DNA of 45,956 nucleotides from Akkermansia muciniphila (GTDB taxonomy: Bacteria; Verrucomicrobiota; Verrucomicrobiia; Verrucomicrobiales; Akkermansiaceae), in the NCBI GenBank assembly GCA_945873305.1, contig CAMCCX010000013.1, positions 1 to 45,956 of the forward strand. Direction: 5' to 3'. Position numbers and translations under genes: made by a program. Each line of letters opens with the position of its first letter. The stretch's first letter is position 1. The notes below the pieces were generated by a model. It made no database searches. It saw only the letters and a list, made by a program, of their open reading frames with translations, and was not told the DNA's origin. Of the stretch, positions 4,878 through 45,956 are shown piece after piece.

Positions 4878-4904
4878 GACGAAGTCCCGTAGTTGCCTCG
4901 GACG

Positions 4905-6044
4905 ATGAGTTTTGAAATCGATACACCGCCTCTTCTCGCGCCCTTGCAGCGGGTGATGTTGCGGGATTCGCTCGCCGAGCCCGACGCCGGGCACCATGTC
5001 GAGCAGGTGGAAATTCTCTTCGCCAGCGGCCCGGCGCGTGGCCGCGTGGCGGCGGCGTGGGAGGAAACCGTGGCGAGCACCGAGGCGCTGCGCGTCGCTT
5101 TCGTGACGGCTAACGGAAATGCCTCGGGCCGGGAATTCGTGACTCCGCGGAATTTTCTGAACCCGCATGAACCGCTGCCGTCATCGTGGGAAAGCTGGCG
5201 GGAGGCGGATCGCCGCCGCCCACTGCTCGCTCCGCATGAAGGGCCATGGCGGGCGGCGTATTGGCCGGAAGAGGGGCGGCTCATCTGGACCTTCCACCAT
5301 GCGCTGCTAGACGGGAGGTCCCTAACGCGGATGCTGCGGGATTTCCTCGAACGGCTTGCAGGCGGAAATCCGCCGCCGTTAGCGATCGCCAAGTGGCCCG
5401 CTCCCACGGCGGAAGCGCTGGCGCTGGCGGAGCGGATCCTCCGCGACGGCGCGGTGGATTCGCTGGAAATGGATTTCCCTGCTGACGCCGCGGGTCCGGC
5501 GGTGCGTTTGATGGGAGATGAGTTCGCGCGGAACTTGGAGTCGCTGGCGGCGGTGATCGGGGTGACCGCCGCGACCCTTCTCATCTGGGCCTGGGGTCAG
5601 GCGCTGCTAGAAATTTCCGGGGCCGATGCGGTCATCGTCGAGCAACTGCGCGCAGGCGCGCCGCAGCCGGGGACCGCGGGATTTACCATGAACACCTTGC
5701 CCGTGACGGTGCGCCGCGCGGGCGGTGACGTGGCGCGGAGCTTGCGGGAGTTCCGCGCCCGGCTGCTGGCGCTGCGGGACATCGAGTCGGTGGCGCCGGG
5801 GGATTTCGCGCCCGGAGTTTTCCCGGATCTGGACGGACCTTCCAGCAGTATGATCATGGTCGAGCGCGGCACGTTGCGCCACATGGCGGGCCGGGAATGC
5901 GTCGAATCGCTGGTGCTTCACGAGGCCAAAGGCGAGACTTTGATGGCCACCGCGCATGTTCTGCCAGACTTGCGGCTGGAGGTGGAAGGCCCCGGACGGC
6001 ACGCGCTGCTGGCCGGCTGGGTCCACGTATTGGAGCGGTTGTGA
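4905..6044 (+). CDS. Stand-alone NRPS-type condensation domain protein
   Basis: About 379 residues. The condensation-domain catalytic signature HHxxxDG is seen as FHHALLDGRSLTRMLRDF near residue 130. The rest fits a lone condensation/acyltransferase fold: PLQRVMLRDSLAEPDAGHHVEQ at the start and an NTLPV motif near residue 262, the usual mid-domain block before the second half. No adenylation, carrier or thioesterase domain is fused to it or present nearby. It could be a free-standing acyl or aminoacyl transferase acting on a carrier protein elsewhere. It follows the anti-sigma-like gene by 27 bases and may be in the same operon. ATG 4905 is chosen; TTG at 4893 is an in-frame alternative. Confidence 0.8.
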   Translation: MSFEIDTPPLLAPLQRVMLRDSLAEPDAGHHVEQVEILFASGPARGRVAAAWEETVASTEALRVAFVTANGNASGREFVTPRNFLNPHEPLPSSWESWREADRRRPLLAPHEGPWRAAYWPEEGRLIWTFHHALLDGRSLTRMLRDFLERLAGGNPPPLAIAKWPAPTAEALALAERILRDGAVDSLEMDFPADAAGPAVRLMGDEFARNLESLAAVIGVTAATLLIWAWGQALLEISGADAVIVEQLRAGAPQPGTAGFTMNTLPVTVRRAGGDVARSLREFRARLLALRDIESVAPGDFAPGVFPDLDGPSSSMIMVERGTLRHMAGRECVESLVLHEAKGETLMATAHVLPDLRLEVEGPGRHALLAGWVHVLERL

Positions 6045-6120
6045 AATACTGTCCCGCCCAATTCAGGCGAAGTGCGCCATCACACTTGCCGGCTGCCCGC
6101 GCTCTCGACTAAAAACGCGC

Positions 6121-6687
6121 GTGGCCGGCAAAAACATCGTTTATTTCGACTTGGAAACCCAACGCAGCTTCGGCGACGTCGGCGGCTCCATGCACAAGGA
6201 CAAGATGCAGGTCTCCGTCGGCGTGACCTACAGCACCGCCCGCGGAACTTACGAGATTTACGCGGAAAACGAGATGGAGAAGCTCGGCGAGGAGCTCGTC
6301 CGCGCGGATCTCGTCGTCGGTTGGAACCACTTGCAGTTCGATTATCCGGTCCTCCAGCCCTACGTTTTCCACACGCTCGCCGAGCAAACGCTCAACCTCG
6401 ACATGATGCTCGAGCTCGAAAAAATCGTCGGTTTCCGCCTCAAACTCGACTCCGTGGCCTCCGCCTCGCTCGGCACCGGCAAGACCGCCGACGGCCTCGA
6501 CGCGCTGCGCTGGTGGCAGGAACACAAGAAATCCGGCGAGTTCGCACCGCTCAAGAAAATCGCCGAATACTGCGCCTTCGACGTGAAGGTCACCAAATGC
6601 GTCCACGAATACGCCCTCGAACACGGGCTGCTCAAATACGACGACAAGAGCGGCCGGCCCGCCGAAGTCGCCGTGGACTGGAAATAA
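6121..6687 (+). CDS. DEDD-family 3'-5' exonuclease (RNase H-like)
   Basis: A 188-residue protein starting at GTG (VAGKNIVYFDLETQRSF). The DnaQ/RNase_H_2 exonuclease motifs are in order: FDLET (ExoI, first Asp and Glu), VVGWNHLQFDYPVL (ExoII Asp) and YCAFDVKVTKCVHEYA (ExoIII-like Asp with Y four residues upstream). It probably trims single-stranded DNA or RNA 3' ends. Relatives in Verrucomicrobiota and other phyla are single-domain proteins of this size. An upstream in-frame ATG at 5956 lies inside the condensation gene and is unlikely. The stop at 6685-6687 directly abuts the end of a convergent small gene. Confidence 0.8.
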   Translation: MAGKNIVYFDLETQRSFGDVGGSMHKDKMQVSVGVTYSTARGTYEIYAENEMEKLGEELVRADLVVGWNHLQFDYPVLQPYVFHTLAEQTLNLDMMLELEKIVGFRLKLDSVASASLGTGKTADGLDALRWWQEHKKSGEFAPLKKIAEYCAFDVKVTKCVHEYALEHGLLKYDDKSGRPAEVAVDWK

Positions 6688-6795
6688 TCACATCCAGCCG
6701 AGCTGCTCCAAAACCTTGGTCACCGTCCAAATAAAGACGACGGTCAAAGCGACGATGTAAATCTTCGCGGCGAATTCAATGGAGGAGCGGGTCAT
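6688..6795 (-). CDS. Predicted 35-residue single-span membrane protein
   Basis: The minus strand encodes MTRSSIEFAAKIY, then IVALTVVFIWTVTKVLE and QLGWM with a TGA stop that touches the stop codon of the convergent exonuclease gene. The centre is a clear hydrophobic helix of about 18 residues with a short basic N-terminal side, typical of tiny single-span proteins. No good ribosome-binding site was seen. No family is recognised. The evidence for a real gene is the membrane-helix pattern, the exact packing against the neighbour and the lack of any other gene in this gap. Confidence 0.4.
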   Translation of the reverse strand: MTRSSIEFAAKIYIVALTVVFIWTVTKVLEQLGWM

Positions 6796-6901
6796 GGCGC
6801 CGGTCTTTTAGGGCGGCGGCCGGATTTCGCCAAGGGAAATGGTCGGCAGCTTAAAATTTGCTCTTGCAGTTTTTGTGCGTTTAATCGCAGATCCCGCAGC
6901 C

Positions 6902-8899
6902 ATGAAATTCCGCCCGCTCTTCGCACTCCTGCTCGTCACGCCCGCGTGGGCTCAATCCACCGACCTCCTGCCGAAGCGGCTCGACGAGCTCGTCGTCACC
7001 GCCAGCCCGCTCGACCGCACGCTTTTCGAGCTGGTCCAGCCGGCCGCCGTCCTCAAGGAAAAGGAGCTCATGCGCAACCTCGCCCCCACGCTCGGCGAAA
7101 CCTTGGGCAAGCAAGCGGGCGTCAGTTCCACCTCGTTCGGCCCCGGTGCCAGCCGCCCGATCATCCGCGGCCTCGGCGACGACCGGCTGCGCGTGCTCCA
7201 GAACGGCACCTCCGTGCTCGACGTCTCCAACGTCAGTCCCGACCACGCCGTCGCCGCCGACCCGCTAACGGTGCGCTCGGTCGAAATCGTGCGCGGGCCG
7301 GCCACCCTGCTCTACGGCCCTAACGCCGTGGGCGGCGTCGTCAACGTCATCGACGACCGCATCCCCGAGGAGCGCGTCAGCGGCATCGACGGCTCGCTCG
7401 ACACCCGCTACGGCTCGGCGGAAAACCTCCGCTCTCTATCAGGCGCGGTGAACTTCGGCGCGGGCCCCTTCGCCTTCCACCTCGACGCCTTCACCCGCGA
7501 ATCCGACGACCTCGAAATCCCCGGTTACGCCCGCTCCGAGCGGCTCCGCGCCGCAGACCCGCAGCCGCACGAGGCCCGCGGCACGCTGCCCAACAGCTTC
7601 ACCGACTCCGACGGCGCGGCCATCGGCGGCTCCTACATTTGGGACCACGGCTTCGTCGGCGTTTCCTACTCCGGCATCGATTCGCTCTACGGCACGGTGG
7701 CGGAAGAGGACGTCACCATCGACCTCCGCCAACGCCGCTGGGACCTGCGCGGCGCGTTTTACGAGCCGGCTAACGGAATTAAGGAAATCAACTACAAATT
7801 CGGTTACTCGGATTACGAGCACACCGAGTTCGAGGGCGCGGAAACCGGCACCCGGTTCCTCATCGACGGCTTCAACACCCGCGCGGAGATCCTTCACGAA
7901 AAGCTCCACGGCTTCGAAGGCGCGGTCGGCGTGGAAATCCAACGCAGCGATTTCTCCGCGCTCGGCGAGGAGGCGTTTCTCCCGCCCGTCGAAAACCAGG
8001 TGAACTCGCTGTTCGCCTTCGAGGAAATCGAACTCGACCGTTATACCTTCCAGTTCGGCGGCCGCTACGACTATCAGGCTAACGAAACCGACGCCTTCGA
8101 TCGCGACTTCAACGCCTTCAGCGCCTCCGCCGGCGTGATTTACAATCCCACCGAAGACTACGCCGTGGCGATGACGGTTGGCTACTCGCAGCGCCCGCCG
8201 AACTACGTCGAGCTCTTCGCCGACGGCCCGCACGCCGCGACCGGCACCTATGAAATCGGTGATCCGGACCTCGGCACCGAGGATTCGCTCTCGCTCGACC
8301 TCTCGCTCCGGAAAAAGACCGGCCGCGTGACCGGCAGCGTCAGCGGCTTCTATTACCGCTTCAACGACTTCATCGCGAACCAACCCGCCGGCATCAACGA
8401 CCCCGTCGATGACCTGCCGGTTTATCGTTACGAAGCCATCGGCGCGAACTTCTATGGCGGCGAACTCGAGGCCACCGTCCACTTGCTAGAGCCCGCGGAA
8501 GCTCCCGCCACCGGGAAATCCCAACAGCTCGACCTGATCTTCCTCGCCGACTACGTCCGCGCCGAGGACCGCGACAGCGGCGAGTCCGTCCCGCGCATCC
8601 CGCCGTTCCGCTCGACCGTCGCGCTCGACTATCAGATCGATAGGGTCGGCGCCCGCCTCGAAGCGCAGTGGTGCGCCCACCAGGGCGACACCGCGGAAAA
8701 CGAACCGCCCAGCGACAGCTACGTCCTGCTCAGCGCCGGGCTCGACTACACCTTCACCACCGGCGATGTGACCACCACCGTGTTCCTGAAAGGCGTCAAC
8801 CTGCTCAACGAGGAAGCCCGCCCGAGCACTTCGTATCTCAAGGAAATCGCCCCGCTCGCCGCGCGCGGAATCGTCGTCGGCCTGCGCGCCGATTTCTAA
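6902..8899 (+). CDS. TonB-dependent receptor, ZnuD-like
   Basis: A 665-residue outer-membrane receptor. The signal peptide is MKFRPLFALLLVTPAWA; the TonB box region is LDELVVTASPL. The plug domain (residues about 35-160) has RPIIRGLGDDRLRVLQNG, SPDHAVAADPL and VRGPATLLYGPNAVGGVVNVID, which is the pattern of ZnuD-type metal receptors. The remainder is a 22-strand beta barrel ending in GLRADF with the terminal aromatic residue expected for BAM recognition. The substrate is not shown by the sequence; zinc or another metal chelate is a guess from the plug motif. ATG 6902 is chosen because it starts the signal peptide; ATG 6839 is possible. It converges on rph. Confidence 0.9.
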   Translation: MKFRPLFALLLVTPAWAQSTDLLPKRLDELVVTASPLDRTLFELVQPAAVLKEKELMRNLAPTLGETLGKQAGVSSTSFGPGASRPIIRGLGDDRLRVLQNGTSVLDVSNVSPDHAVAADPLTVRSVEIVRGPATLLYGPNAVGGVVNVIDDRIPEERVSGIDGSLDTRYGSAENLRSLSGAVNFGAGPFAFHLDAFTRESDDLEIPGYARSERLRAADPQPHEARGTLPNSFTDSDGAAIGGSYIWDHGFVGVSYSGIDSLYGTVAEEDVTIDLRQRRWDLRGAFYEPANGIKEINYKFGYSDYEHTEFEGAETGTRFLIDGFNTRAEILHEKLHGFEGAVGVEIQRSDFSALGEEAFLPPVENQVNSLFAFEEIELDRYTFQFGGRYDYQANETDAFDRDFNAFSASAGVIYNPTEDYAVAMTVGYSQRPPNYVELFADGPHAATGTYEIGDPDLGTEDSLSLDLSLRKKTGRVTGSVSGFYYRFNDFIANQPAGINDPVDDLPVYRYEAIGANFYGGELEATVHLLEPAEAPATGKSQQLDLIFLADYVRAEDRDSGESVPRIPPFRSTVALDYQIDRVGARLEAQWCAHQGDTAENEPPSDSYVLLSAGLDYTFTTGDVTTTVFLKGVNLLNEEARPSTSYLKEIAPLAARGIVVGLRADF

Positions 8900-34461: not shown

Positions 34462-36369
34462 TTAGTGCTTCATCTTGTTCACGAAGCGATGCGCGGTGGC
34501 GTTGATCGCGAGGACGACGGCGAAGAGCAGGATGCCGACGACGAACAGCGCGCGGTAGTGGACGCTGCCGAGCGGGACTTCTCCCAGCTCCTGGGCGATG
34601 ATGCCGGTGAGGGTGTGGGCCGGTTGGAAAAAGCTGCCGAGACCGGAGGTGAAATCGGGGATTTTGATCCGGTTGCCGGCGACGAGCAGGACGACCATGG
34701 TTTCTCCGATGACGCGGCCAAGTCCGAGCAGGACGGCGGCGAGGATCCCGGAAAACGCGGCGGGGATGACGACGCGGAAGGTGGTCTGGACCCGCGACGC
34801 GCCGAGGGCTTCGGAGGCTTCCGCGTAGGCGGAGGGCACGTTGTTGATCGCGTCCTCGGCGAGCGAGAAAATGGTGGGGATGCTCATGAGCGCGAGCAGG
34901 CAGCCGGCGGTGAAAATATTGAGTCGCTCCTCGATGGGGAATCCGGGAATCCACTGCAGGGAATCCAGCATGGATAGATCGCGGAGCACCGTGCCGAAAA
35001 CGAGGATGCCGATGAAGCCGAGGACGACCGAGGGAATCGCCTGGATGAACTCGATGACCGGCTTGATGAGTGCTTGCTCGCGGCTGGAGGCGAATTGGTT
35101 GACGTAAACCGCCGCGCCGATGCCGCTGGGAATGGCGATGGTGAGCGCGACGATGGAGATCATCAGCGAGCCGATGGCGAGCGGTAAAATTCCGTAGAAG
35201 TCCTGCCACTCGCCGCCGGTGACCCAGTCCTTGCCGGTGAGAAACGAGGAGATGGCGGCGGACAAGGGGACGGGGGCGTCGTGTTTCCAGGCGGTGATTT
35301 CCGCAGGGGCATTTTGGAGGTCGGCGATGAACAAGGGCCAGTTGTTGCGGGCGACTGATAGCAGGCGGGCGGCCTCGGGCTGGGAGAGCGTGGCGGGGAG
35401 TTGGCTGACGATGCCGGCGGCGGCTTGCTGGAGAGCGGTGTGGGTTTTGACGCAGTCCGGGCGACGCTCCAGCAGGATTTGGATCGGGCCTTCGACGTCG
35501 GGTTTGTCGGCGAGGGAGGCTTGTGCTTCGGAGACGAGTTTTTCGCGTTCGGCGGGGTCTTTGGCGCTGGCGGCGGCGGCGAGCAGGGTTTTGCGGTCTT
35601 TTTCGAGGATGTCGGCGCTCTGGATCTTTTCCTTGGTGGCGGTGACGGACTCGGTCATTTCCGAGATCAGCGAGCTGAGGTCCGCGCCGGCGGCTTCGAA
35701 GGTGTCGATGGTGGCGCGCATTTCCAGCAGCGGCTGCGCTTGTTTTTCGCGGGCGGCGGCGAATTCCTCGGCAAGCGCGGTGACGAGGGCGGGGTCGTCG
35801 GTCGAGTCGATGGGCCGGGTGTGGATGGATTCGATCAGCTCGCGGCGCTCGTCTGCGGTGAGGTGCGGGGTGGCGGGCAGCGAGGCGAGGGCCTTGAGTT
35901 TTTGTTGGTCGAAATTGGCGCGGAGTGCGCCGAGCATTTCCGGGTTGGGGGTGATCTCGGCCTGAGAGTTGCTGAGGACGAGGTCGCGGGTGGGTCCGGT
36001 CTGGTCGGTGTAGGCGTTGAAGAGCGCGCTGGCTTCCTGCGAGCGGCGCATCTGGTGGGCGCACTTGCCGTTGATTTCGGCGTAATAAGCGCGGTTGAGG
36101 ACGCTGGCGAGCTGTTCGTGGGCGGTCAGGTTTTTCCGGGAGATGTCAACGAACTCCAGGCCGGCGATCCGGTAAACCTGTAATTCCCGCTGATAGCCGG
36201 GGAAAAAGCCGAGGCCTTCCTTGAGCAGGAAAATGATGATGAGCGCCAGGATGACGATGGTCAGCCCGGCATTGGACGCGAAGAAAAACCGGATCGCCTT
36301 CTCGAAGGAGAAACCTTGTCGCTGGAAACGATGAGGGGCTTGGGGCGATGAGCTTTCTTGCTGGGGCAT
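34462..36369 (-). CDS. pstC: Phosphate ABC transporter permease PstC with giant insertion
   Basis: A 635-residue permease; PstC is normally about 310-320. Helix 1 is at residues about 36-55 (LTIVILALIIIFLLKEGLGF). About 340 residues then intervene before the usual core starts at DFYGILPLAIGSLMISIVAL. The insertion is rich in Ala, Glu, Lys and Gln (AEEFAAAREKQAQPLLEMRA, EKDRKTLLAAAASAKDPAER) and looks like a long alpha-helical or coiled-coil domain in the periplasm. The core ends with the EAA-type loop EASEALGASRVQTTFRVVIPAAFSGI. ATG 36369 (MPQQESSSPQ) is chosen; the frame is open to 36447. It precedes pstA by 13 bases. Confidence 0.9.
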   Translation of the reverse strand: MPQQESSSPQAPHRFQRQGFSFEKAIRFFFASNAGLTIVILALIIIFLLKEGLGFFPGYQRELQVYRIAGLEFVDISRKNLTAHEQLASVLNRAYYAEINGKCAHQMRRSQEASALFNAYTDQTGPTRDLVLSNSQAEITPNPEMLGALRANFDQQKLKALASLPATPHLTADERRELIESIHTRPIDSTDDPALVTALAEEFAAAREKQAQPLLEMRATIDTFEAAGADLSSLISEMTESVTATKEKIQSADILEKDRKTLLAAAASAKDPAEREKLVSEAQASLADKPDVEGPIQILLERRPDCVKTHTALQQAAAGIVSQLPATLSQPEAARLLSVARNNWPLFIADLQNAPAEITAWKHDAPVPLSAAISSFLTGKDWVTGGEWQDFYGILPLAIGSLMISIVALTIAIPSGIGAAVYVNQFASSREQALIKPVIEFIQAIPSVVLGFIGILVFGTVLRDLSMLDSLQWIPGFPIEERLNIFTAGCLLALMSIPTIFSLAEDAINNVPSAYAEASEALGASRVQTTFRVVIPAAFSGILAAVLLGLGRVIGETMVVLLVAGNRIKIPDFTSGLGSFFQPAHTLTGIIAQELGEVPLGSVHYRALFVVGILLFAVVLAINATAHRFVNKMKH

Positions 36370-36480
36370 GCGCGATGGAAGGGTGATAAGTGGCCATTTC
36401 GGAATAGACAAGAAAATGAGCACCGCCGGCGAGCCCGCGATGCCCATCTCCTAGCAACCGAAACAACAGGGTGGAGACGT

Positions 36481-37290
36481 TTACAGATCCTTGACCGGGA
36501 TGAAACCGACCTTGCGGACGATGTCTTGGCCGGCGGACGACTCGATGTAATCCATGAAGGCTTGGGCCTCGGCGGTCGGCTTGTCCGGCGCGTAGAGGTA
36601 GCAAAGGCGGGCGTAAACGTATTTCTTGGCGTTTTGAGCGACGGGTTCGACGCCGTCGATGACGATCGTCTTGGTGCCGGCGGTCTTGGAATAGGCGAGG
36701 CCGACGTAGCCGATGCCGTTTTTGTTCTTGGCCACTTCCTGGGCGATCTGCTCGTTACCGGCCATTTTCAGGGAGCTGGACGGGTAGTCGCGGCCGCCCA
36801 TGGCGAGCTTCTGCCAGTCCTTGTAGGTGCCGGAGGAGGTGTTGCGGGTGTAGATGGAGATCTTGCCGGGAGCGCCGCCGATTTCCGACCAGTCCTTGAT
36901 TTGACCGGTGAAAATCTTGGCGACCTGGTCCTTGGTCAGCTTGGCCAAGGGCGAGTTCTTGTTCACGATGACCACGAGCATGTCGTGGCAGATGCCGTGC
37001 TCCTTGAGGTAAACGCCCTTGGTGCGGCAGAAGGTGCGCTCCTCGTCCTTGACCTTGCGGGAGGACATGCCGATCTGGGCGGTGCCGTTGGCAAGTGCGG
37101 GGAAGGCGGTGGTGGAACCTTCCGCGGCGATCTCGAATTTCACGCCCGTGTTGCCGGCGGCCTTGAAGCCTTCGGCTAACTGGGGGATGAGCTTGGCGCC
37201 GAGGGTGTCGCTGCCTTTGATGCTGAGGGTTTGCGCGCCGGCCATGGAGAGCAGGGCGGCTGTTGCGAATAGCGTGCTGATGATTTTCAT
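36481..37290 (-). CDS. pstS: Phosphate-binding protein PstS
   Basis: A 269-residue periplasmic solute-binding protein. Signal MKIISTLFATAALLSMAGAQ. The phosphate-binding landmarks of PstS-like proteins are present: LSIKGSDTLGAKLIPQLAEG, EIAAEGSTTAFPALANGTAQIGMSSR, VVIVNKNSPLAKLTKDQVAKIFTGQIKDWSEIGG and YTRNTSSGTYKDWQKLAMGG. This is the shorter PstS subtype. It lies between the porin gene (38-base gap) and pstC (111-base gap), in the usual place for the pst operon. Confidence 0.94.
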   Translation of the reverse strand: MKIISTLFATAALLSMAGAQTLSIKGSDTLGAKLIPQLAEGFKAAGNTGVKFEIAAEGSTTAFPALANGTAQIGMSSRKVKDEERTFCRTKGVYLKEHGICHDMLVVIVNKNSPLAKLTKDQVAKIFTGQIKDWSEIGGAPGKISIYTRNTSSGTYKDWQKLAMGGRDYPSSSLKMAGNEQIAQEVAKNKNGIGYVGLAYSKTAGTKTIVIDGVEPVAQNAKKYVYARLCYLYAPDKPTAEAQAFMDYIESSAGQDIVRKVGFIPVKDL

Positions 37291-37328
37291 CTGATGTTGG
37301 TATTGGTGATTTGGATCAATGAGAATTT

Positions 37329-38645
37329 TTAGAATGAGAAACGGAGGCCGCTCATGAAGGTGTAGCCGTCGTAGTCGCCGCCGCCGAGGGTGGAGTATTC
37401 GAGGCCGTTCATGAGCTTGAGCTTGTGGCCGTAGAGGTAGTAGTTGAGGCCGACGTAGGCGGAGGTGTAGGTGTTGCCTTTTTCGTCGTCGCCGGAGACA
37501 AGGCGCTCATAGCGGGATGGGACGCGCAGACCATCGGGATCGGAGGAGCTTGCCACTTGCAGGCGACCGACCAATTGGAGGCCATCGGCGATGAAGTAGG
37601 ACGGGATGATGCTCAGGGCGAGCACGTCCGATTGATTGATGGTTTGAGGGCCGTATTTGCCTTTGCTGCTGTAGCGATCCTCGGTTCCTTCAAAGCCGAA
37701 TCCGTAGAGCAGTTCGGTGGTCAAACCGAAACGGCCGCTGGTGATGTCGTTGGTCAGGGCGATGGAATCCGTGAAGTCGGGAGAGGTGCTGGGAGTGTAA
37801 GCCTCGTCCTTGAGGTCGGCGAATCCTGGCGCGCTGTTGTGCATGTAGTGGAAGGAGGCCACGGCGGTGTCCAACCCGGCTTGTGCGGAGTAGTCGTAAC
37901 CGATTTTTCCGAGCACGACGACACCCTGATCGAAGCTGGAGAACTCGCGGACGCGGTCGCTGCCGTAAATTCCGAGTTCATAGAGCCAGTGTTCCTGGAT
38001 GCCTTTTCCGGAGACCCATGCGCCGGTCAACTCGCCGGGGAAGAGGGTGTTGGAGATCAGGCTGCGCTCGATGGTGAGGATTTCCTTGGAGGAGATTTCC
38101 TGTTCGCGGCTGAATTTCACTTTGGTCTTGCCTGCGGAGATGTTGAGGGCGTCCGAAGGGGCGTAGGTGATGAAGAGGTCGTAGATGTCCTTGTAGAACG
38201 TGTTGTCGCCCGAGTTGTCTTGGCCGTCGTTATCGACGTTGATCTGGCCTTCGAACTTCCAGTTTTGGAACCACTTGGATTTGAAACCGATGCGGGCGCG
38301 ACGGGCTTCGATGTCGTTGCCCCAGACATTTTCGTCGTTGCCGGCGTCCTTGTAGTCGGAGGTGTTGAAGCTGTCGTCGTTCGACTCGCCGTAAATCGAC
38401 TGCACCTGCAAGCGGCCTTGGAGGGAGAATTCCTGGAGGATCGGGTTGCTGTCGTCTTTATAGAGCGTGAAGGCGGACCAGGCGCGGTCCCAAGCGGTGT
38501 CGCCGGGGAATTTGCCGACCAGCAGGCCGGTGGCGGTGCTTGGGGAAGCGGGCGCTTCGGTGGTGGCGGCGGTGTCGGTGCCGGCTTGGGCAGCGAGGCA
38601 GCCAAGCAGGCTGGTGGCGAGCAGGGTGCGTTGGATTGATTTCAT
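37329..38645 (-). CDS. OprP/OprO-like porin, phosphate-operon associated
   Basis: A 438-residue outer-membrane porin with signal MKSIQRTLLATSLLGCLAAQA. Characteristic OprP/O features: IEARRARIGFKSKWFQNWKFEGQIN, DIYDLFITYAPSDALNISAGKTKVKFSREQEISSKEILTIERS and the terminal strand YTFMSGLRFSF ending in Phe. OprP-type channels pass phosphate or polyphosphate. Its place as first gene of the pst operon and the Pho-box-like sites upstream support that role. The substrate is inferred. ATG 38645 is used; ATG 38654 is three codons further. Confidence 0.88.
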   Translation of the reverse strand: MKSIQRTLLATSLLGCLAAQAGTDTAATTEAPASPSTATGLLVGKFPGDTAWDRAWSAFTLYKDDSNPILQEFSLQGRLQVQSIYGESNDDSFNTSDYKDAGNDENVWGNDIEARRARIGFKSKWFQNWKFEGQINVDNDGQDNSGDNTFYKDIYDLFITYAPSDALNISAGKTKVKFSREQEISSKEILTIERSLISNTLFPGELTGAWVSGKGIQEHWLYELGIYGSDRVREFSSFDQGVVVLGKIGYDYSAQAGLDTAVASFHYMHNSAPGFADLKDEAYTPSTSPDFTDSIALTNDITSGRFGLTTELLYGFGFEGTEDRYSSKGKYGPQTINQSDVLALSIIPSYFIADGLQLVGRLQVASSSDPDGLRVPSRYERLVSGDDEKGNTYTSAYVGLNYYLYGHKLKLMNGLEYSTLGGGDYDGYTFMSGLRFSF

Positions 38646-38670
38646 GGATTGCATTTGTTTTTAGTGGCTT

Positions 38671-38873: not shown

Positions 38874-39068
38874 CCGCCATGATCGGACATTGGCGGACCG
38901 GCTCTGGAGCGGCGGGCACTGCTGGGCCCGCTGTTTCCTAGCCGCTGCCGGTGCTTTCAGCTCGCTTGATGAGCAAAGGAATATGGATTCCGCCGGCTGT
39001 TTCACAACCTTTTGGGTTGCCGGGGCCGCGGGCTTTGCTAGCGTGCCGCCGATTGATTGGGAAAGGTA
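38874..39068. other. Upper part of the porin-HNH divergent region
   Basis: No gene is seen. GGAAAGGT just before 39069 is a good ribosome-binding site for the HNH gene. No convincing -35/-10 pair was found. Confidence 0.4.
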
Positions 39069-39680
39069 ATGACTGCCATACTCGAACATCCCGTGCTCGT
39101 CTTGAATCGGTTCTGGCAACCGATCCACACCTGTTCCGTCCGCCGCTCGCTGCATTTGCTCTGCATCGGCCATGCACAAGTCGTGCAGGTGGAGGGCGAC
39201 GAGCGCTTCAACTCCCATGATCTCTCGTCGTGGATTTCCTACTCGGTCGGAAATGCCAGCGATGAAATGATCCACGGCGCGAGGATCGCCATCCGCGTTC
39301 CCAAGATCGTCGTGCTGTCGCTCTACGACCGCTTGCCGCGGCTGGAGGTGAAATTCACCCGCCGCAATGTTTTCCTGCGGGACAAGTTCACCTGCCAGTA
39401 TTGCACCAAGGTGTTGCCCGAGACCCAGCTCAATCTTGACCATGTCACGCCGCGCGACAAAGGCGGGCGCACCACTTGGGACAACATTGTCACCTCCTGT
39501 TTCCGCTGCAACACGCGCAAGGGCAACAAGCTGCCGCACGAGGCTAACATGCACCCGCAGAGCAAGCCGCTCGCCCCGCGCTGGCGGCCGCTTTTCGGCA
39601 TGCACGAGAACGGCCTCGCCGACGAGAGCTGGAACCATTTCCTCCATCAGGACCGGGCCGAGACACGCCGCTCGGCTTGA
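39069..39680 (+). CDS. HNH endonuclease family protein
   Basis: A 203-residue protein with a C-terminal HNH nuclease domain (about residues 95-150): FLRDKFTCQYCTKVLPETQL, NLDHVTPRDKGGRTTWDNIV, TSCFRCNTRKGNK. The CxxC...CxxC pairs bind zinc and DHV-N-N form the bba-metal active site. The N-terminal half (VLVLNRFWQPIHTCSVRRSL, RVPKIVVLSLYDRLP) is the usual partner in this widespread family of stand-alone HNH proteins, which is common in many phyla and whose role is not known; it is not a homing enzyme here. The ATG is supported by GGAAAGGT. Confidence 0.9.
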   Translation: MTAILEHPVLVLNRFWQPIHTCSVRRSLHLLCIGHAQVVQVEGDERFNSHDLSSWISYSVGNASDEMIHGARIAIRVPKIVVLSLYDRLPRLEVKFTRRNVFLRDKFTCQYCTKVLPETQLNLDHVTPRDKGGRTTWDNIVTSCFRCNTRKGNKLPHEANMHPQSKPLAPRWRPLFGMHENGLADESWNHFLHQDRAETRRSA

Positions 39681-40073: not shown

Positions 40074-40952
40074 ATGAAGACCTTCTGGAAACTTACCCGG
40101 CCCGCGGCCCTGAGCTGCTGGATTCGCAACCTGCGCAAAAACCTGTTGTGGATCGCGGGAGGAGGAGCGTCCACGGCGTTGATCCTGATTTCCTGCGGGA
40201 CTACCGGCCGCACAATGATGGCTCCGCCAAGCATCGCCGGAGCCGAGTTCATCGGCTCGGAGGCCTGTTCGGAGTGCCACGAGAAAATCAACCGCGACTT
40301 CCGCACCGCGGACCACGCCAAGCTCCAGGCCAAGGGCGACAACGCCAAGGACATGGGCTGCGAGTCCTGCCATGGACCCGGCAGCAAGCACAAGGAGTCG
40401 GGTGGCGAAGCCGGCACTATCGTCAATCCCCACAAATCTCCCGAAACCTGCTTCCAGTGCCACCTCGACAAAAAAGCCGAGTTCAGCCTGCCCTACAGCC
40501 ACCCCGTGCTCGCCGGCAAGATGACCTGCTCGGACTGCCACGACCCGCACAAGGGCAACGCCGTCAAAGGCGGCGGCACCCAGCTCCACGGCAATAACGA
40601 AACCTGCGCCGAGTGCCACAAGGCCCAGACCCAGCATTTCATCTTCTCGCACGATGCGGTGAAGGAGGGATGCTCGACCTGCCATAATCCGCACGGATCG
40701 GTGAACCAGAAGATGCTCACCGAACGCAACGCCACGCTCTGCCTCAAGTGCCACTTCGACAGCCACACTGGCCTCGGCACGAACAAGAACTCATCCACTA
40801 TCATCAATGGACAGATGGGGCCGTCCGGCAGCCACGGTCCTACCAACGCGACCAGTGGCGCCATCAACCGCTTCAACCAAGGCACCTGCTGGAGCGCCGG
40901 TTGCCACGAGGCAGTCCACGGCTCCAACACCAACGTCGAACTGCGTTTCTAA
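40074..40952 (+). CDS. Octaheme MtrA/DmsE-like cytochrome c with lipobox
   Basis: A 292-residue cytochrome with seven CxxCH motifs (Cys 65, 96, 126, 152, 178, 200, 223) and an eighth of unusual spacing, CWSAGCH (272-278). The spacing and His distribution (SHPVLAGKMTCSDCHDPH, FSHDAVKEGCSTCHNPHGSV) match the MtrA/PioA/DmsE family, normally decaheme, which carries electrons across the periplasm into an MtrB barrel. The N-terminus (NLLWIAGGGASTALILISCG) has a lipobox at Cys41, so it may be lipid-anchored. The long basic segment before it could mean the true start is further in. It is the first gene of the cluster, 21 bases before the barrel gene. Confidence 0.9.
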   Translation: MKTFWKLTRPAALSCWIRNLRKNLLWIAGGGASTALILISCGTTGRTMMAPPSIAGAEFIGSEACSECHEKINRDFRTADHAKLQAKGDNAKDMGCESCHGPGSKHKESGGEAGTIVNPHKSPETCFQCHLDKKAEFSLPYSHPVLAGKMTCSDCHDPHKGNAVKGGGTQLHGNNETCAECHKAQTQHFIFSHDAVKEGCSTCHNPHGSVNQKMLTERNATLCLKCHFDSHTGLGTNKNSSTIINGQMGPSGSHGPTNATSGAINRFNQGTCWSAGCHEAVHGSNTNVELRF

Positions 40953-40973
40953 TCCCCAAATCCCACCCACACT

Positions 40974-43184
40974 ATGAAACCGATTCTTTTCTCGAATATC
41001 CTGGGGCGTTCCAAAACCATGCGCCTGTTCCGTCACGCGCTCGTTGCTCCGGCACTTATGATCACGGTCAGTGTCTCACAGGCCGGCACCACCGCCGCGC
41101 CGGCTCAAGCTGAGGAACCAACACCCGCGGCCAACTGGATCAACTTCACCATCGGCGGTGCCTTTGTCAGCGGCGATGACGCCCACTTCATGCAGCGCAC
41201 GCGGTCCCGTGACTTCTAGGGTGGCATTGAGGACGTGATGTTTTCACATGAGCTCAACGACTCGACGACCTTCACCCTCGACGGCCACGCGTTGCCGGGT
41301 AACGAGGACTACGAGATCAACATGGACCTTGAGAACACCGACCTTGGATACGTCAAGTTCGGATTCAAGCAGTTCCGCACGTGGTATGACGCCAGTGGCG
41401 GATATCTCCAAGGATCCAACATGGATGCCAGCTTGGTGAATGACATTCTTGACGACGAACGCTCGATCGACCGTGGCGAAATCTATTTCGAGGCTGGTCT
41501 GCGCAAGGAAGATTTTCCGGAAATCACCTTCTCCTACCGTCACCTTTATCGGAACGGCGATAAGGACACCTTATGCTGGGGTGACAGCCGCACTAATAGC
41601 AGCTGGGGCGGCGTCACCGGCAGCAACACGGCATTCAAGTTCATGCCAGGCTTGTGGGATATTGATGAAACCACCGATATTTTCGAACTCGATGCCGATC
41701 ACACCGTCGGCAACACGGATCTCGGAATGGGCCTGGTATACGAGAATTACAGCATCGACAACACCCGCACCATGAATCGCTGGGGGAGCCGCACGAGTCC
41801 GTCTCCGACAACATTCGGCATTAACGAAGTCATTCAGAATGAAAAAACTGAGGCGGATATGTTCGCGGGTAACATTCATTCAGTGACACGCTTCAACGAC
41901 AAGGCATGGCTGTCCTTCGCCGCTTCGTATAGTAACTTGGACACCGACATCGACGGTGGCTCCCGGCGTTTCATTTACAGCCCGCAGACCCTGCCCGCCA
42001 CCACCCCGCAGCGCGACTATAGCTATGACCAGATGAGCGGAGGAAGCAGTGTGGACCAGTTCATCACCAATCTCAACTTTATGTGGGTGCCGGTGCAGGA
42101 CCTGACCGTGACTCCGTCCTTGCGCTATGAGCACGAGAACGTCGACACGATCAGCAAGTTCAATGCTTACAACGGCTCCGCTTCTTGGCTCGGGCTTGAG
42201 TCGCTGTCATCCAATACCGATATGGACTCCACCACCGGAGCCATTGATATCCGCTACACCGGACTAGACAACATCGTCCTTTATGCCAAGGGCGAGTGGG
42301 GTAATGAGAGCGAGAGCCTGCACCGCGTGGACAACTATTTGCCCGGAGAGCTTCTCGACACCGATGTGGACATTGACGAGCAGGAATACACCCTTGGTGC
42401 CAACTGGTATGCCCTTAGCAACCTGAGTTTCTCCGTCCAAGGTCTTCATATGAGCCGGGACCAATCATTGGATCATGAGGTTGGGAACCAGACCAATTCT
42501 CCTGTCAGCGCAAACGGTGGTTCCAACAACTTCCGTCCGATCATGATGGAGCACAACTCCGAGATTGATGATTTGAACCTGCGGATGACCTGGCGGCCAA
42601 TGTCCAACGTCTCGTTGGTGACACGCTATGACTACGTCCACGCAGAGTATGAAAATCGCGGGTTGGACGAGCAAAATAATGCAACAGGTGGTGCGATTGC
42701 GGGAACGCTGGATCCGCTCAATTTGATCGAAAGCGGCGACGTCGCTTCGCATATACTCAGCCAAAGCGTGACTTGGAATCCATTTGCCTCGATGTATGTG
42801 CAAGGCACAATCAGCTGGATCAGCTCGGAAACCGACACTCCGGAAGACTACACCGGTGATGCCGACAACGACTGCCTTGTAGGCAGCTTGACCGCCGGTT
42901 ACGCGATTGACGCCCGCACTGAATTGACCGCTACCTACTCCTACTATCAGTCTAACAACTATGTGGCCAGCCGGAGTTACAATGGAACGCCAACCATGGG
43001 ATACGGTTATGAGACCGAGGAGCACATGATCGCCCTGACCCTGTCTCGGGTGATCACTGAGAACATGGTCTGGAACCTGCGCTACGGGTTCATCACCAAC
43101 AACACCACCGACACCGACCAAAGCGGCGGCTACGACGATTTCGACGCGCACATGGTGTCAACGGGCTTGCAAGTGCGCTTTTGA
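40974..43184 (+). pseudogene. MtrB/PioB-like outer-membrane barrel with in-frame amber codon
   Basis: One continuous frame of 736 codons, broken only by TAG at 41217-41219 (codon 82), encodes a decaheme-associated outer-membrane beta barrel of the MtrB/PioB family. The N-terminal part has a signal (MRLFRHALVAPALMITVSVSQA). The region around the stop, SGDDAHFMQRTRSRDF-stop-GGIED, matches the family pattern where Tyr or Phe precedes GGIE. The remainder is a run of amphipathic strands (YVKFGFKQFRTWYDASGGYL, ATYSYYQSNNYVASRSYNG) ending MVSTGLQVRF. Restart at ATG 41235, with GAGG upstream, would lack the signal. The gene is otherwise intact, so the stop is recent, suppressed or an error. Confidence 0.85.
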
Positions 43185-43221
43185 TCTGCCAGAACATTAT
43201 CGATACTTCCTTAAATCATAA

Positions 43222-43560
43222 ATGACCAATACCATGAAACTCCAGATGTCACTCCTCTCGATCGCCCTGTTGCTGGGAACCCCCGCAGCCTTCGGCGATG
43301 CCGCGGCGCTTTACGCCAAGAATTGCGCCTCCTGCCACGCCAAAGACGGTAGCGGCGATACCAAGATGGGCAAGAAGGCCGGTGCTCGGGATTACCGGGA
43401 CGCCACGGTTCAGGCCTCGTTCAGTGATGCCGAAGGCCTCAAGGCCATCAAGGAAGGTGTAACCAAGGACGGTAAGGAAAAAATGAAGGCATACGGGTCC
43501 AAGGTTTCCGATGCGGAGGCCAAGGAGTTGCTCGCCTACATTCGCACCTTCAAGAAGTAA
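43222..43560 (+). CDS. Small monoheme c-type cytochrome
   Basis: A 112-residue exported cytochrome. Signal: MKLQMSLLSIALLLGTPAAFG. One heme site, YAKNCASCHAKDGSGDTKMG, with a likely distal Met in KEKMKAYGSKVSDAEAKEL. The fold is the ordinary class I cytochrome c, soluble in the periplasm. Located between the barrel gene (37-base gap) and the NapC-like gene, it is a candidate shuttle between the inner- and outer-membrane parts of the electron chain. ATG 43234 is an alternative start that gives the same signal. Confidence 0.92.
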   Translation: MTNTMKLQMSLLSIALLLGTPAAFGDAAALYAKNCASCHAKDGSGDTKMGKKAGARDYRDATVQASFSDAEGLKAIKEGVTKDGKEKMKAYGSKVSDAEAKELLAYIRTFKK

Positions 43561-43610
43561 CAATTCATGAAATCCGGTGCCGGTCATCCGCGGCCGGAAC
43601 GGTTCCAGTC

Positions 43611-43642
43611 GCGGAGTCTCGGTCACGGGACTCCGCTTTTTT
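43611..43642 (+). terminator. Intrinsic terminator after the monoheme cytochrome
   Basis: GCGGAGTC (43611-43618) pairs with GACTCCGC (43629-43636) across a 10-base loop, followed by six T residues. It would reduce read-through into the NapC-like gene, so that gene may have lower or separate expression. Confidence 0.85.
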
Positions 43643-43674
43643 AAAGTCAGTAACAACCCAAACGCCCATCGATC

Positions 43675-45171
43675 ATGTCAGAAGAAATTTCGCCGACTCC
43701 GACCGCCAGTCGTCTCAACCGCTTGCGCAACTGGCTCAGCTTGGCCGGGATGGTGCTCGCTATAGCCGCGTTTTTCGCGTTTATCCTGCTATTTGCCGTG
43801 GACTTGATGGCCGCCCATGCGAACCCGTACATGGGCATTCTCGCATACGTGGTCGCGCCCATGTTTCTGTTGATGGGCCTCGCTTTGATCCTGCTGGGAT
43901 ACGCTCTGGAAACCCGCAGAATCCGCAAAGGGCTTCCCGAAAAGGATTCCGCGTTTGTCCTGAACATCAACCTGTCCCGCCCGCGGGACCGCCGCCTGAT
44001 GGTCGCCTTCGTCGGTGGCAGCCTCGGGTTCCTGTTCCTGACCGCGTTCGGCAGCTACGAGACCTATCACCTGATGGAGACGAATTCGTTCTGCGGCGAG
44101 ACCTGCCACACGCCGATGGAACCCGAGTACAAGGCATATCAGCATTCCGCTCACGCCCAAGTGGATTGCGTCGCCTGTCACATCGGCCCCGGCACGACTG
44201 CTTACATCAAGACGAAAATCAACGGAGTGAAGCAGATGTATCATCAAATTCTCGGGGATTTCGACCGTCCTATCAAGATTCTCAATCCGAACCTGCGGCT
44301 GGCCCAGGAAACCTGTCAGACCTGTCACTGGTCGCAGAAACATTTCGGGGATGTGCACAAGACCTATCGACATTTCCTCGCGGACGAGACGAACACGCCG
44401 TTCACCGTGCAAATGATCCTCAAGGTGGGCGGCAGTGACCCGGTGCATGGTCCCGTCGAGGGCATCCACTCGCACATGAACGTCTCCAACAAGATCGAGT
44501 TCATCGCGCTTGATGAAGAGCGCCTGAATATCCCTTGGGTGCGCGTGACCGATGCCAATGGCAAGGTGACGGAATACCGGACCGAGGAATTCAGGGACGA
44601 CATTTCGAAACATCCGATCCGCAACATGGATTGCATGGATTGCCACAACCGGCCCGCCCACAACTTCGCCTCCCCGAACGATGCGGTGGACCAGTCCATT
44701 GCGATGGGCCGCATCGATCCCGCCATTCCGTGGGCCAAGGCCAAGGTGGTCAAGGTTCTGGCAGCTTCATATTCTACCCGCGAGGAGGCTCACGAGAAGA
44801 TCGCGGCTTCGCTCCGCGCCGAATATCCGGAGGACCAACGGGTGGACGCGCTGATCAAGGAAACCCTGGCCATCTATAAAAACAACTTCTTTCCCGAGAT
44901 GAAAGCCGATTGGCGCGCCCACCCGAATTTCATCGGGCACAAGGACTCCAACGGCTGCTTCCGCTGCCATGATGGAAAGCACATGGCGGCGAACGGCACC
45001 GATTCGATCAAGGGTAGCGATTGCAACGCCTGCCACCTCATCGTCGCCCAAGGTGCGGGCCAGGAACTCGAAAAGGTGAATCCGAAGGGCTTCGAGTTTT
45101 TCCACGTGGACTCGGAATACACCGAACCCAACTGCGCCGAGTGCCACAACGGGCAGATTCAAGAGGAGTAA
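43675..45171 (+). CDS. NapC/NirT-like heptaheme inner-membrane cytochrome
   Basis: A 498-residue protein with three membrane helices (about 22-44, 53-75 and 109-125) followed by a periplasmic multiheme domain. Heme motifs: CGETCH (Cys140, the CX3CH form with TPMEPE after it), CVACH, CQTCH, CMDCH, CFRCH, CNACH and CAECH, seven in all. The first two lie in the NapC/NrfH-type block NSFCGETCHTPMEPEYKAYQHSAHAQVDCVACHIGPG. Such proteins exchange electrons with membrane quinol. Three helices and seven hemes are more than the one helix and four hemes of classical NapC, so it is a distant relative. It would be the inner-membrane end of the chain. Confidence 0.92.
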   Translation: MSEEISPTPTASRLNRLRNWLSLAGMVLAIAAFFAFILLFAVDLMAAHANPYMGILAYVVAPMFLLMGLALILLGYALETRRIRKGLPEKDSAFVLNINLSRPRDRRLMVAFVGGSLGFLFLTAFGSYETYHLMETNSFCGETCHTPMEPEYKAYQHSAHAQVDCVACHIGPGTTAYIKTKINGVKQMYHQILGDFDRPIKILNPNLRLAQETCQTCHWSQKHFGDVHKTYRHFLADETNTPFTVQMILKVGGSDPVHGPVEGIHSHMNVSNKIEFIALDEERLNIPWVRVTDANGKVTEYRTEEFRDDISKHPIRNMDCMDCHNRPAHNFASPNDAVDQSIAMGRIDPAIPWAKAKVVKVLAASYSTREEAHEKIAASLRAEYPEDQRVDALIKETLAIYKNNFFPEMKADWRAHPNFIGHKDSNGCFRCHDGKHMAANGTDSIKGSDCNACHLIVAQGAGQELEKVNPKGFEFFHVDSEYTEPNCAECHNGQIQEE

Positions 45172-45257: not shown

Positions 45258-45956
45258 ATGAAATTATCTAACTTATGCCTGGGATTGCTCGTGCTGTCCG
45301 CCGCCGCTTGCAAACAGGATCGCGAGATCAAGGTTTACCGCGTCGCCAAGGAAACCTCGCCAGCCCCCGCTCAGTCCGCCACTCCAGTGGATCCCCACGC
45401 CGGCGTTCCCGGCATGATGCCGGGCGGTGTCATGCCTTCCGGTCCGGCGGGCGATCCCCACGCGGGCCTAACGGCAAGTCAGTTGGCCGGCACGGGTTCG
45501 GGCGGCGGCCCGCAAGTCACGGACGCTCCTCCGGCGCATTGGAAGAAAATGCCTGCAACTTCCATGCGGCAGGCCAGCTATCTCGTGGAAGGGGAGGGCG
45601 GGGCTGTTACTGACATCTCCCTGGTGGTTCTTCGCGGGGCGGCCGGCGGCACCCTCGACAATGTCAACCGCTGGCGTGGCCAACTCGCCCAGCCAGCGAT
45701 TGACGAAGCCACTCTCAAGCAGACTTCGAAGACCGTGGTTACGCCCTTGGGTGAGGCGGTGGTAGTGGAAATCCAAGGCCTGGCTCCCGGTGCGGATGCC
45801 TTGAAGGACGGAGGCATGACGGGTGCCGTTGCTAACCGAGGCGCGGACGCGTGGTTCTACAAGATGCGGGGTAATTCCGCTCTAACGTCCGCCGAGAAGG
45901 ACAATTTCATCAAGTGGATGCAATCTGTGAAGCCCGCGGCTGAGACCCCGGCCGCT
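45258..45956 (+). CDS. Lipoprotein of unknown function, cut by window end
   Basis: The frame starts MKLSNLCLGLLVLSAAACKQ, a lipoprotein signal with lipobox AAAC, and runs open to the end of the window (233 codons, no stop). Residues 40-75 are Pro/Gly/Met-rich and contain DPHAG twice. The later part (GGAAGGTLDNVNRWRGQLAQ and PLGEAVVVEIQGLAPG, FYKMRGNSALTSAEKDNFIKW) resembles proteins of unknown function found beside cytochrome genes in Verrucomicrobiota and Planctomycetota (recalled, not searched). Its position after the heptaheme gene suggests a link with the electron-transfer cluster. The 3' end is missing. Confidence 0.8.
   Translation, partial: MKLSNLCLGLLVLSAAACKQDREIKVYRVAKETSPAPAQSATPVDPHAGVPGMMPGGVMPSGPAGDPHAGLTASQLAGTGSGGGPQVTDAPPAHWKKMPATSMRQASYLVEGEGGAVTDISLVVLRGAAGGTLDNVNRWRGQLAQPAIDEATLKQTSKTVVTPLGEAVVVEIQGLAPGADALKDGGMTGAVANRGADAWFYKMRGNSALTSAEKDNFIKWMQSVKPAAETPAA

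Follow-up and report, generated by a model that had tools for sequence, protein, structure and literature searches.

A gene cluster at the end of a contig from a freshwater bacterium of the Verrucomicrobiota probably (at a rough probability of 0.7) encodes a shortened Mtr-type conduit across the cell envelope, in which electrons would run from an ImcH-type inner-membrane cytochrome to a small monoheme cytochrome, then to an octaheme cytochrome seated in an outer-membrane barrel, and from there to an acceptor outside the cell. Clusters of this kind are already known. In 2017, He et al. described verrucomicrobial clusters in which a porin predicted to have 20 or more transmembrane motifs is accompanied by an eight-heme cytochrome and sometimes by an extracellular cytochrome; they reported homologues in the cultured Opitutus terrae and suggested that humics receive the electrons (PMC5615132). 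The present locus agrees with that account of porin and eight-heme cytochrome, and it is by description that the two are likened. He et al. regarded the system as non-homologous to the conduits of Geobacter and Shewanella (PMC5615132), whereas it is placed here as a derived relative of MtrA and MtrB, and its ImcH, ResB/ResC, lipobox and CX4CH features are described. As far as the literature searched shows, this evolutionary placement and the linkage to ImcH are what is added. A 2022 survey of MtrCAB systems reported three phyla, and the word Verrucomicrobi- is absent from it (PMC8805035).

Layout of the locus and the interrupted barrel frame

The window, that is the whole stretch of DNA analysed, is one entire contig of 45956 bp, from an assembly of 3.06 Mb in 171 contigs, and its 3' end lies at 45956. 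Genes for the octaheme cytochrome, the barrel, the monoheme cytochrome and a heptaheme membrane cytochrome follow one another on the + strand, with the start of a lipoprotein gene behind them (Table 1). The four genes named in an earlier note on this DNA do exist, and its counts of 7, 1 and 8 hemes for the three cytochromes were confirmed by the motif positions.

Table 1. Features of the cluster, in positions of the window.
Feature	Position	Strand	Remarks
Octaheme MtrA/DmsE-type cytochrome, lipoprotein-like	40074-40952	+	292 aa; 7 CXXCH and 1 CX4CH
Codon of Cys41, predicted lipidated Cys of the octaheme (lipobox L-I-S-C)	40194-40196	+	Cys41 invariant
Heme motifs of the octaheme	CXXCH 40266, 40359, 40449, 40527, 40605, 40671, 40740; CX4CH 40887-40907	+	
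MtrB-like outer-membrane barrel frame	40974-43184	+	736 residues counting one in-frame TAG; 26 predicted strands
In-frame TAG of the barrel gene	41217-41219	+	start of predicted strand 2; congeners have intact copies
Small class-I monoheme cytochrome c	43222-43560	+	112 aa; PF13442 E 1e-12
Heme motif of the monoheme cytochrome	43324-43338	+	protein has a signal-like N-terminus
ImcH-type inner-membrane heptaheme cytochrome	43675-45171	+	498 aa; 3 TM; PF03264 E 3e-13
Heme motifs of the ImcH-type protein	CX3CH 44092-44109, plus six CXXCH	+	
Conserved lipoprotein gene, cut by the contig end	45252-45956	+	first 705 bp

The same gene order was found in congeners, at 38-78% identity, and the four-gene set is therefore not a product of chance. 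The nearest named loci belong to Verrucomicrobia and Akkermansiaceae MAGs, and the monoheme gene is kept beside the barrel in relatives. The truncated lipoprotein gene had no match in Pfam or NCBIfam; in congeners the cluster is followed by this lipoprotein, then ResB, then ResC, and lipoprotein homologues with a downstream ResB (PF05140) and a cytochrome c assembly protein (PF01578) were identified at five loci (L015, L016, L018, L021 and L067). ResB and ResC belong to System II of cytochrome c biogenesis.

The barrel gene is not the single open frame for which it had been taken, since an in-frame TAG, missed on the first reading, cuts it after 81 codons. A sense codon occupies this position in 11 of the 11 relatives checked, and the stop falls inside a conserved motif at the start of predicted strand 2, so that the product up to the TAG could not form a barrel. 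This position, together with the patchy occurrence of the cluster in the genus, where the barrel is carried by 9 of 37 genomes including that of the window, would be expected if the stop were real and the locus were decaying in the host organism, leaving a conduit that does not work there. Such decay, which is compatible with the family having the function proposed above, is a serious possibility, although well short of even odds: the remaining 654 codons are open, show no further lesion and reach 61% identity with a congener, and all three cytochrome genes are intact. A frame so clean beside three intact genes implies that the mutation is very recent, or that the stop stems from an assembly error or a mixture of strains. 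The TAG was read as a residue in the barrel alignment and fold prediction reported below.

Further upstream, the window carries other genes. A set resembling a phosphate-uptake system lies on the - strand (34462-38654) and comprises an ABC permease, a PstS-type binding protein and an OprO/P-type porin. An HNH endonuclease is encoded at 39057-39680, its best NCBIfam match being the HNH part of IscB, well below the cut-off, and a condensation-domain protein is followed by a TonB-dependent receptor at 4893-8899.

The octaheme cytochrome and its barrel

The octaheme cytochrome matches the models NF041028 (E 3e-48) and TIGR03508 (E 8e-45) for decahemes of the GSU2203 and DmsE types, in both cases below the cut-off. 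On TIGR03508 it reached 153 bits against a cut-off of 192, and the decahemes of loci L114 and L117 pass with 270 and 256 bits; the family trait of ten CXXCH hemes is replaced in the window protein by seven CXXCH and one CX4CH. It also matches the MtrA chain of the Mtr complex in the PDB (6r2q_A, which bears another molecule name in the PDB copy) with E 1e-25. By sequence it is thus a clear homologue of MtrA/DmsE that falls outside the curated TIGR03508 subfamily. The suggestion of the earlier note that a Verrucomicrobiota genome combines an MtrA/DmsE-type cytochrome, an MtrB-type barrel and a cytochrome on the quinol side was supported.

In the alignment with decahemes, hemes 3 and 4 are missing from the octaheme as a block, and its last heme is a CX4CH where decahemes have CXXCH. 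The CX4CH motif occurs in 40 of 42 octahemes and in only 1 of 39 decahemes. By a simple motif test, in which some of the decaheme matches may be due to chance, 40/42 octahemes versus 12/39 decahemes have a lipobox ahead of heme 1, and Cys41 is invariant in 14 aligned relatives. Among the matches listed in a scan of genome contigs, octaheme and barrel occurred together in several verrucomicrobial orders and in a single Omnitrophota MAG; nearly all the other matches listed were decahemes, at most 37% identical. The CX4CH octahemes form one group in the tree, with support of 99/99. They are read as derivatives of the decaheme MtrA/DmsE type, probably through loss of the two hemes. An AlphaFold model of the octaheme was poor (pLDDT 60.6) and was discarded. 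OmaB of the Geobacter OmaB/OmbB complex is an octaheme as well, and the shared count of eight is not taken as a sign of relation. In the same tree, the decaheme of a MAG titled Bordetella parapertussis (L112) groups tightly with Bryobacterales (Acidobacteriota), and the name of that record looks wrong.

The good score on the DmsE model, albeit below the cut-off, is what might be expected if the conduit supplied a soluble acceptor through a reductase of its own, secreted or on the cell surface, in the way that DmsEF serves DmsAB. This is very unlikely here, given that the neighbourhoods, scanned by cluster homology and heme motifs, recur with cytochromes, the lipoprotein and ResB/ResC, and with no recurring reductase.

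A barrel gene lies downstream of the octaheme gene in every octaheme locus with enough sequence. Neither PF11854 nor TIGR03509 matched the window barrel, and only 2 of 31 of its relatives matched PF11854 (best E 2e-7). To conclude from these curated models alone that the barrel is unrelated to MtrB would be wrong, as profile comparison and structure both place MtrB nearest. A comparison set was made of the barrels from 16 decaheme MtrA-type loci of other phyla, seven of which match PF11854, and the profile of these 16 finds the solved MtrB (6r2q_B) with E 2.9e-36. Alignment of the verrucomicrobial barrel profile to this set by hhalign gave a probability of 99.85% and E 1.2e-30 over 613 columns. 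LptD, named in the MtrB paper as another 26-strand barrel (PMC7198977), served as negative control (congeners and one relative) and gave E 0.0025 over 98 columns. A sequence search of the PDB with the barrel profile returned no match.

The AlphaFold model of the barrel (pLDDT 80.1, pTM 0.76) has 26 strands, the first four of them short, with a helix at residues 69-76 between strands 1 and 2. The published description of the solved MtrB gives 26 strands, the first ones short, and a helix between the first two (PMC7198977), and the model of the window barrel resembles it in each of these points. In a Foldseek search with the model, MtrB came out on top with E 4.3e-17, nearly seven orders of magnitude ahead of the next hit (2.6e-10); VIA ranked MtrB highest as well, with Z 23.5 and an rmsd of 3.8 over 570 residues, the next chain having Z 17.7. 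By profile comparison and predicted fold, the barrel is thus a remote homologue of MtrB with the same architecture, outside the curated PF11854/TIGR03509 family. The MtrB/PioB-like label of the earlier note holds by hhalign, Foldseek and VIA and fails by the two curated models, and a placement of the barrel outside the MtrB lineage, which would have undone the conduit reading, was not what these three comparisons returned.

The pair therefore shares with Shewanella MtrAB (6r2q) and the MtrA/DmsE/GSU2203 group a homologous cytochrome, a 26-strand barrel and the same adjacency. It differs from Shewanella MtrAB in its eight hemes instead of ten, the CX4CH last heme, the lipobox, the lack of a linked MtrC gene within the window, the presence of ImcH in place of CymA, and a barrel too diverged for PF11854/TIGR03509. 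Placed in the MtrA/MtrB lineage, the "novel porin" pair of 2017 becomes a naturally occurring form of the solved Mtr wire that lacks two of its hemes and is open to experiment.

The ImcH-type protein and the possible monoheme partner

ImcH proteins of the Geobacter group are 495-519 aa long, with three N-terminal transmembrane helices, an adjoining CX3CH and six CX2CH motifs (PMC6295460). The heptaheme protein of the window shows this architecture in every respect, having hydropathy segments at residues 19-50, 51-81 and 107-127, a CX3CH (CGETCH) at residue 140 and six CXXCH. It is 38.7% identical to a homologue from a Geobacter MAG (L117) and 42% identical to an acidobacterial one, and in a quick tree the verrucomicrobial ImcH-type sequences group together (SH-aLRT 89). 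The protein thus matches ImcH by sequence, and a role in menaquinol oxidation may be assigned to it by analogy. Three helices and seven hemes in a NapC-like protein had been read as signs of a distinct version of the conduit; these are the very traits that define ImcH (PMC6295460).

The window protein resembles ImcH of Geobacter sulfurreducens in length, helices and heme motifs and differs in being encoded beside an MtrAB-type pair. A survey from 2018 reported one verrucomicrobial ImcH and found no mtrAB or mtoAB adjacent to imcH (PMC6295460). In contrast to that absence, an ImcH-type gene adjoins or nearly adjoins the MtrAB-type pair repeatedly in Verrucomicrobiota, in a family with the cultured Opitutus terrae among its members according to He et al. 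(2017), and also at two acidobacterial loci. The acidobacterial decaheme clusters L114 and L135 have cytochrome, barrel, monoheme and ImcH-type genes on the same strand and in the same order, with an 11-heme gene in between at L114; unlike the window locus, they encode a decaheme cytochrome and a barrel unmatched by the verrucomicrobial profile HMM.

Co-occurrence was analysed in a sample of 289 genomes of Verrucomicrobiota. The octaheme was found in 16 genomes, and the barrel in the same 16 and in one further, weak case. ImcH occurred in 26 genomes, among them 14 of the 16 with the octaheme versus 12 of the 273 others (Fisher p about 5e-15, with genomes treated as independent and shared ancestry ignored). 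Within the genus, where 25 genomes were compared, ImcH was present in 6/6 with the barrel versus 1/19 without it (p 4e-5, genomes again treated as independent). The association of the genes across genomes, proposed earlier as a check, thus holds for octaheme, barrel and ImcH. The one genome of the genus with ImcH and without the barrel (G016) has, on contig C55 (L067/L100), a paralogous pair that has diverged and that lies next to an imcH-like gene and the lipoprotein-ResB-ResC genes; the cytochrome of this pair has eight CXXCH and no CX4CH, and its 724-aa barrel was missed by the profile.

The monoheme cytochrome may be a periplasmic partner of the barrel. In a barrel with an even number of strands both termini face the periplasm, which makes such a partner reasonable. 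At nine loci (L091, L093, L096-L099, L101, L104 and L105) the barrel protein carries a fused heme motif at its N-terminal end while a separate monoheme gene is absent nearby, a substitution that links the monoheme to the barrel. The fused-heme barrels are mostly of the Limisphaerales side, and a PSCyt1 match was obtained in six members of the alignment.

Proposed electron path, direction and candidate surface cytochromes

In the proposed path, ImcH would take electrons from menaquinol at the inner membrane, the small monoheme cytochrome would ferry them across the periplasm, and the lipid-anchored octaheme, sheathed by the 26-strand barrel, would hand them from heme to heme through the outer membrane. 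The extracellular acceptor would most plausibly be humic substances or Fe(III), reached directly or by way of an unlinked surface cytochrome. Freshwater and soil Verrucomicrobiota are widespread degraders of polysaccharides. With a conserved conduit they could use humics or iron for respiration and would not depend on fermentation alone, which bears on carbon flow in anoxic lakes, as hypothesised by He et al. (2017; PMC5615132).

The heme chain of MtrA spans 80 Å across a 40 Å membrane; heme 1 lies about 20 Å into the periplasm, and the N-terminus points to that side too (PMC7198977). Hemes 3 and 4, which the octaheme lacks, lie in the periplasm-facing N-terminal half of MtrA, and their loss would shorten the periplasmic reach of the wire. 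Lipid anchoring through Cys41 would suit a cytochrome that stays at the membrane, and anchor and shorter wire together would bring heme 1 near the membrane. A broader proposal can be put forward only tentatively: that shortened MtrA wires with a lipid anchor form a clade at the level of the phylum, that they have lost hemes 3 and 4 and have a CX4CH as exit heme, and that they are encoded in one transcription unit with ImcH, with ResB/ResC perhaps serving the CX3CH and CX4CH sites. If true, the shortened wire and ImcH in one unit would constitute a short path by which electrons from menaquinol leave the cell.

Both metal reduction and Fe(II) oxidation had been considered in the earlier note. 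Outward reduction is favoured, by analogy, because ImcH homologues have so far been reported only from Fe(III) reducers (PMC6295460), and Fe(II) oxidation is less favoured. Heme wires are able to conduct both ways, and the same conduit might run in reverse, with Fe(II) or some other external donor supplying the electrons, as for PioAB and MtoAB. These two are MtrAB-type systems without an extracellular cytochrome (PMC6344600), and the window has no linked MtrC-like gene either, as would suit reverse flow; the partner ImcH, for which quinol oxidation is the one role implicated so far, makes it unlikely. CbcL-like cytochromes (multiheme proteins with a b561 domain) lie beside the octaheme-barrel pair in Opitutaceae, and they do not decide the direction, since the CbcL family occurs in both. 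Some Opitutaceae have a tetraheme gene near the pair, with neighbours that are FeS- and NrfD-like by sequence appearance.

No MtrC/OmcA-type gene is linked to the conduit in the window, as had been noted before, and 785 bp of contig follow the imcH-like gene. Several candidates from relatives were set aside. Of the 13- and 11-heme proteins beside the pair in Opitutaceae, the two scanned, from L054, have C-terminal cytochrome b561 domains and are read as CbcL-like inner-membrane proteins, and PF22113, the MtrC/MtrF domain, is unspecific as a marker, for it touches the octaheme and the ImcH-type protein too. A 9-heme protein of L022 had no match in the window's own genome, and all the matches listed for it in relatives fall in its C-terminal third, a stretch common to other proteins. 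Heme motifs numbered 211 across the genome of the window, against 98 in a reversed control. On contig C22 of this genome (L172:7980-10229), unlinked to the conduit, a gene beside a two-component system encodes a candidate surface cytochrome, a protein of 749 aa that looks secreted and has nine CXXCH together with a bacterial Ig domain.
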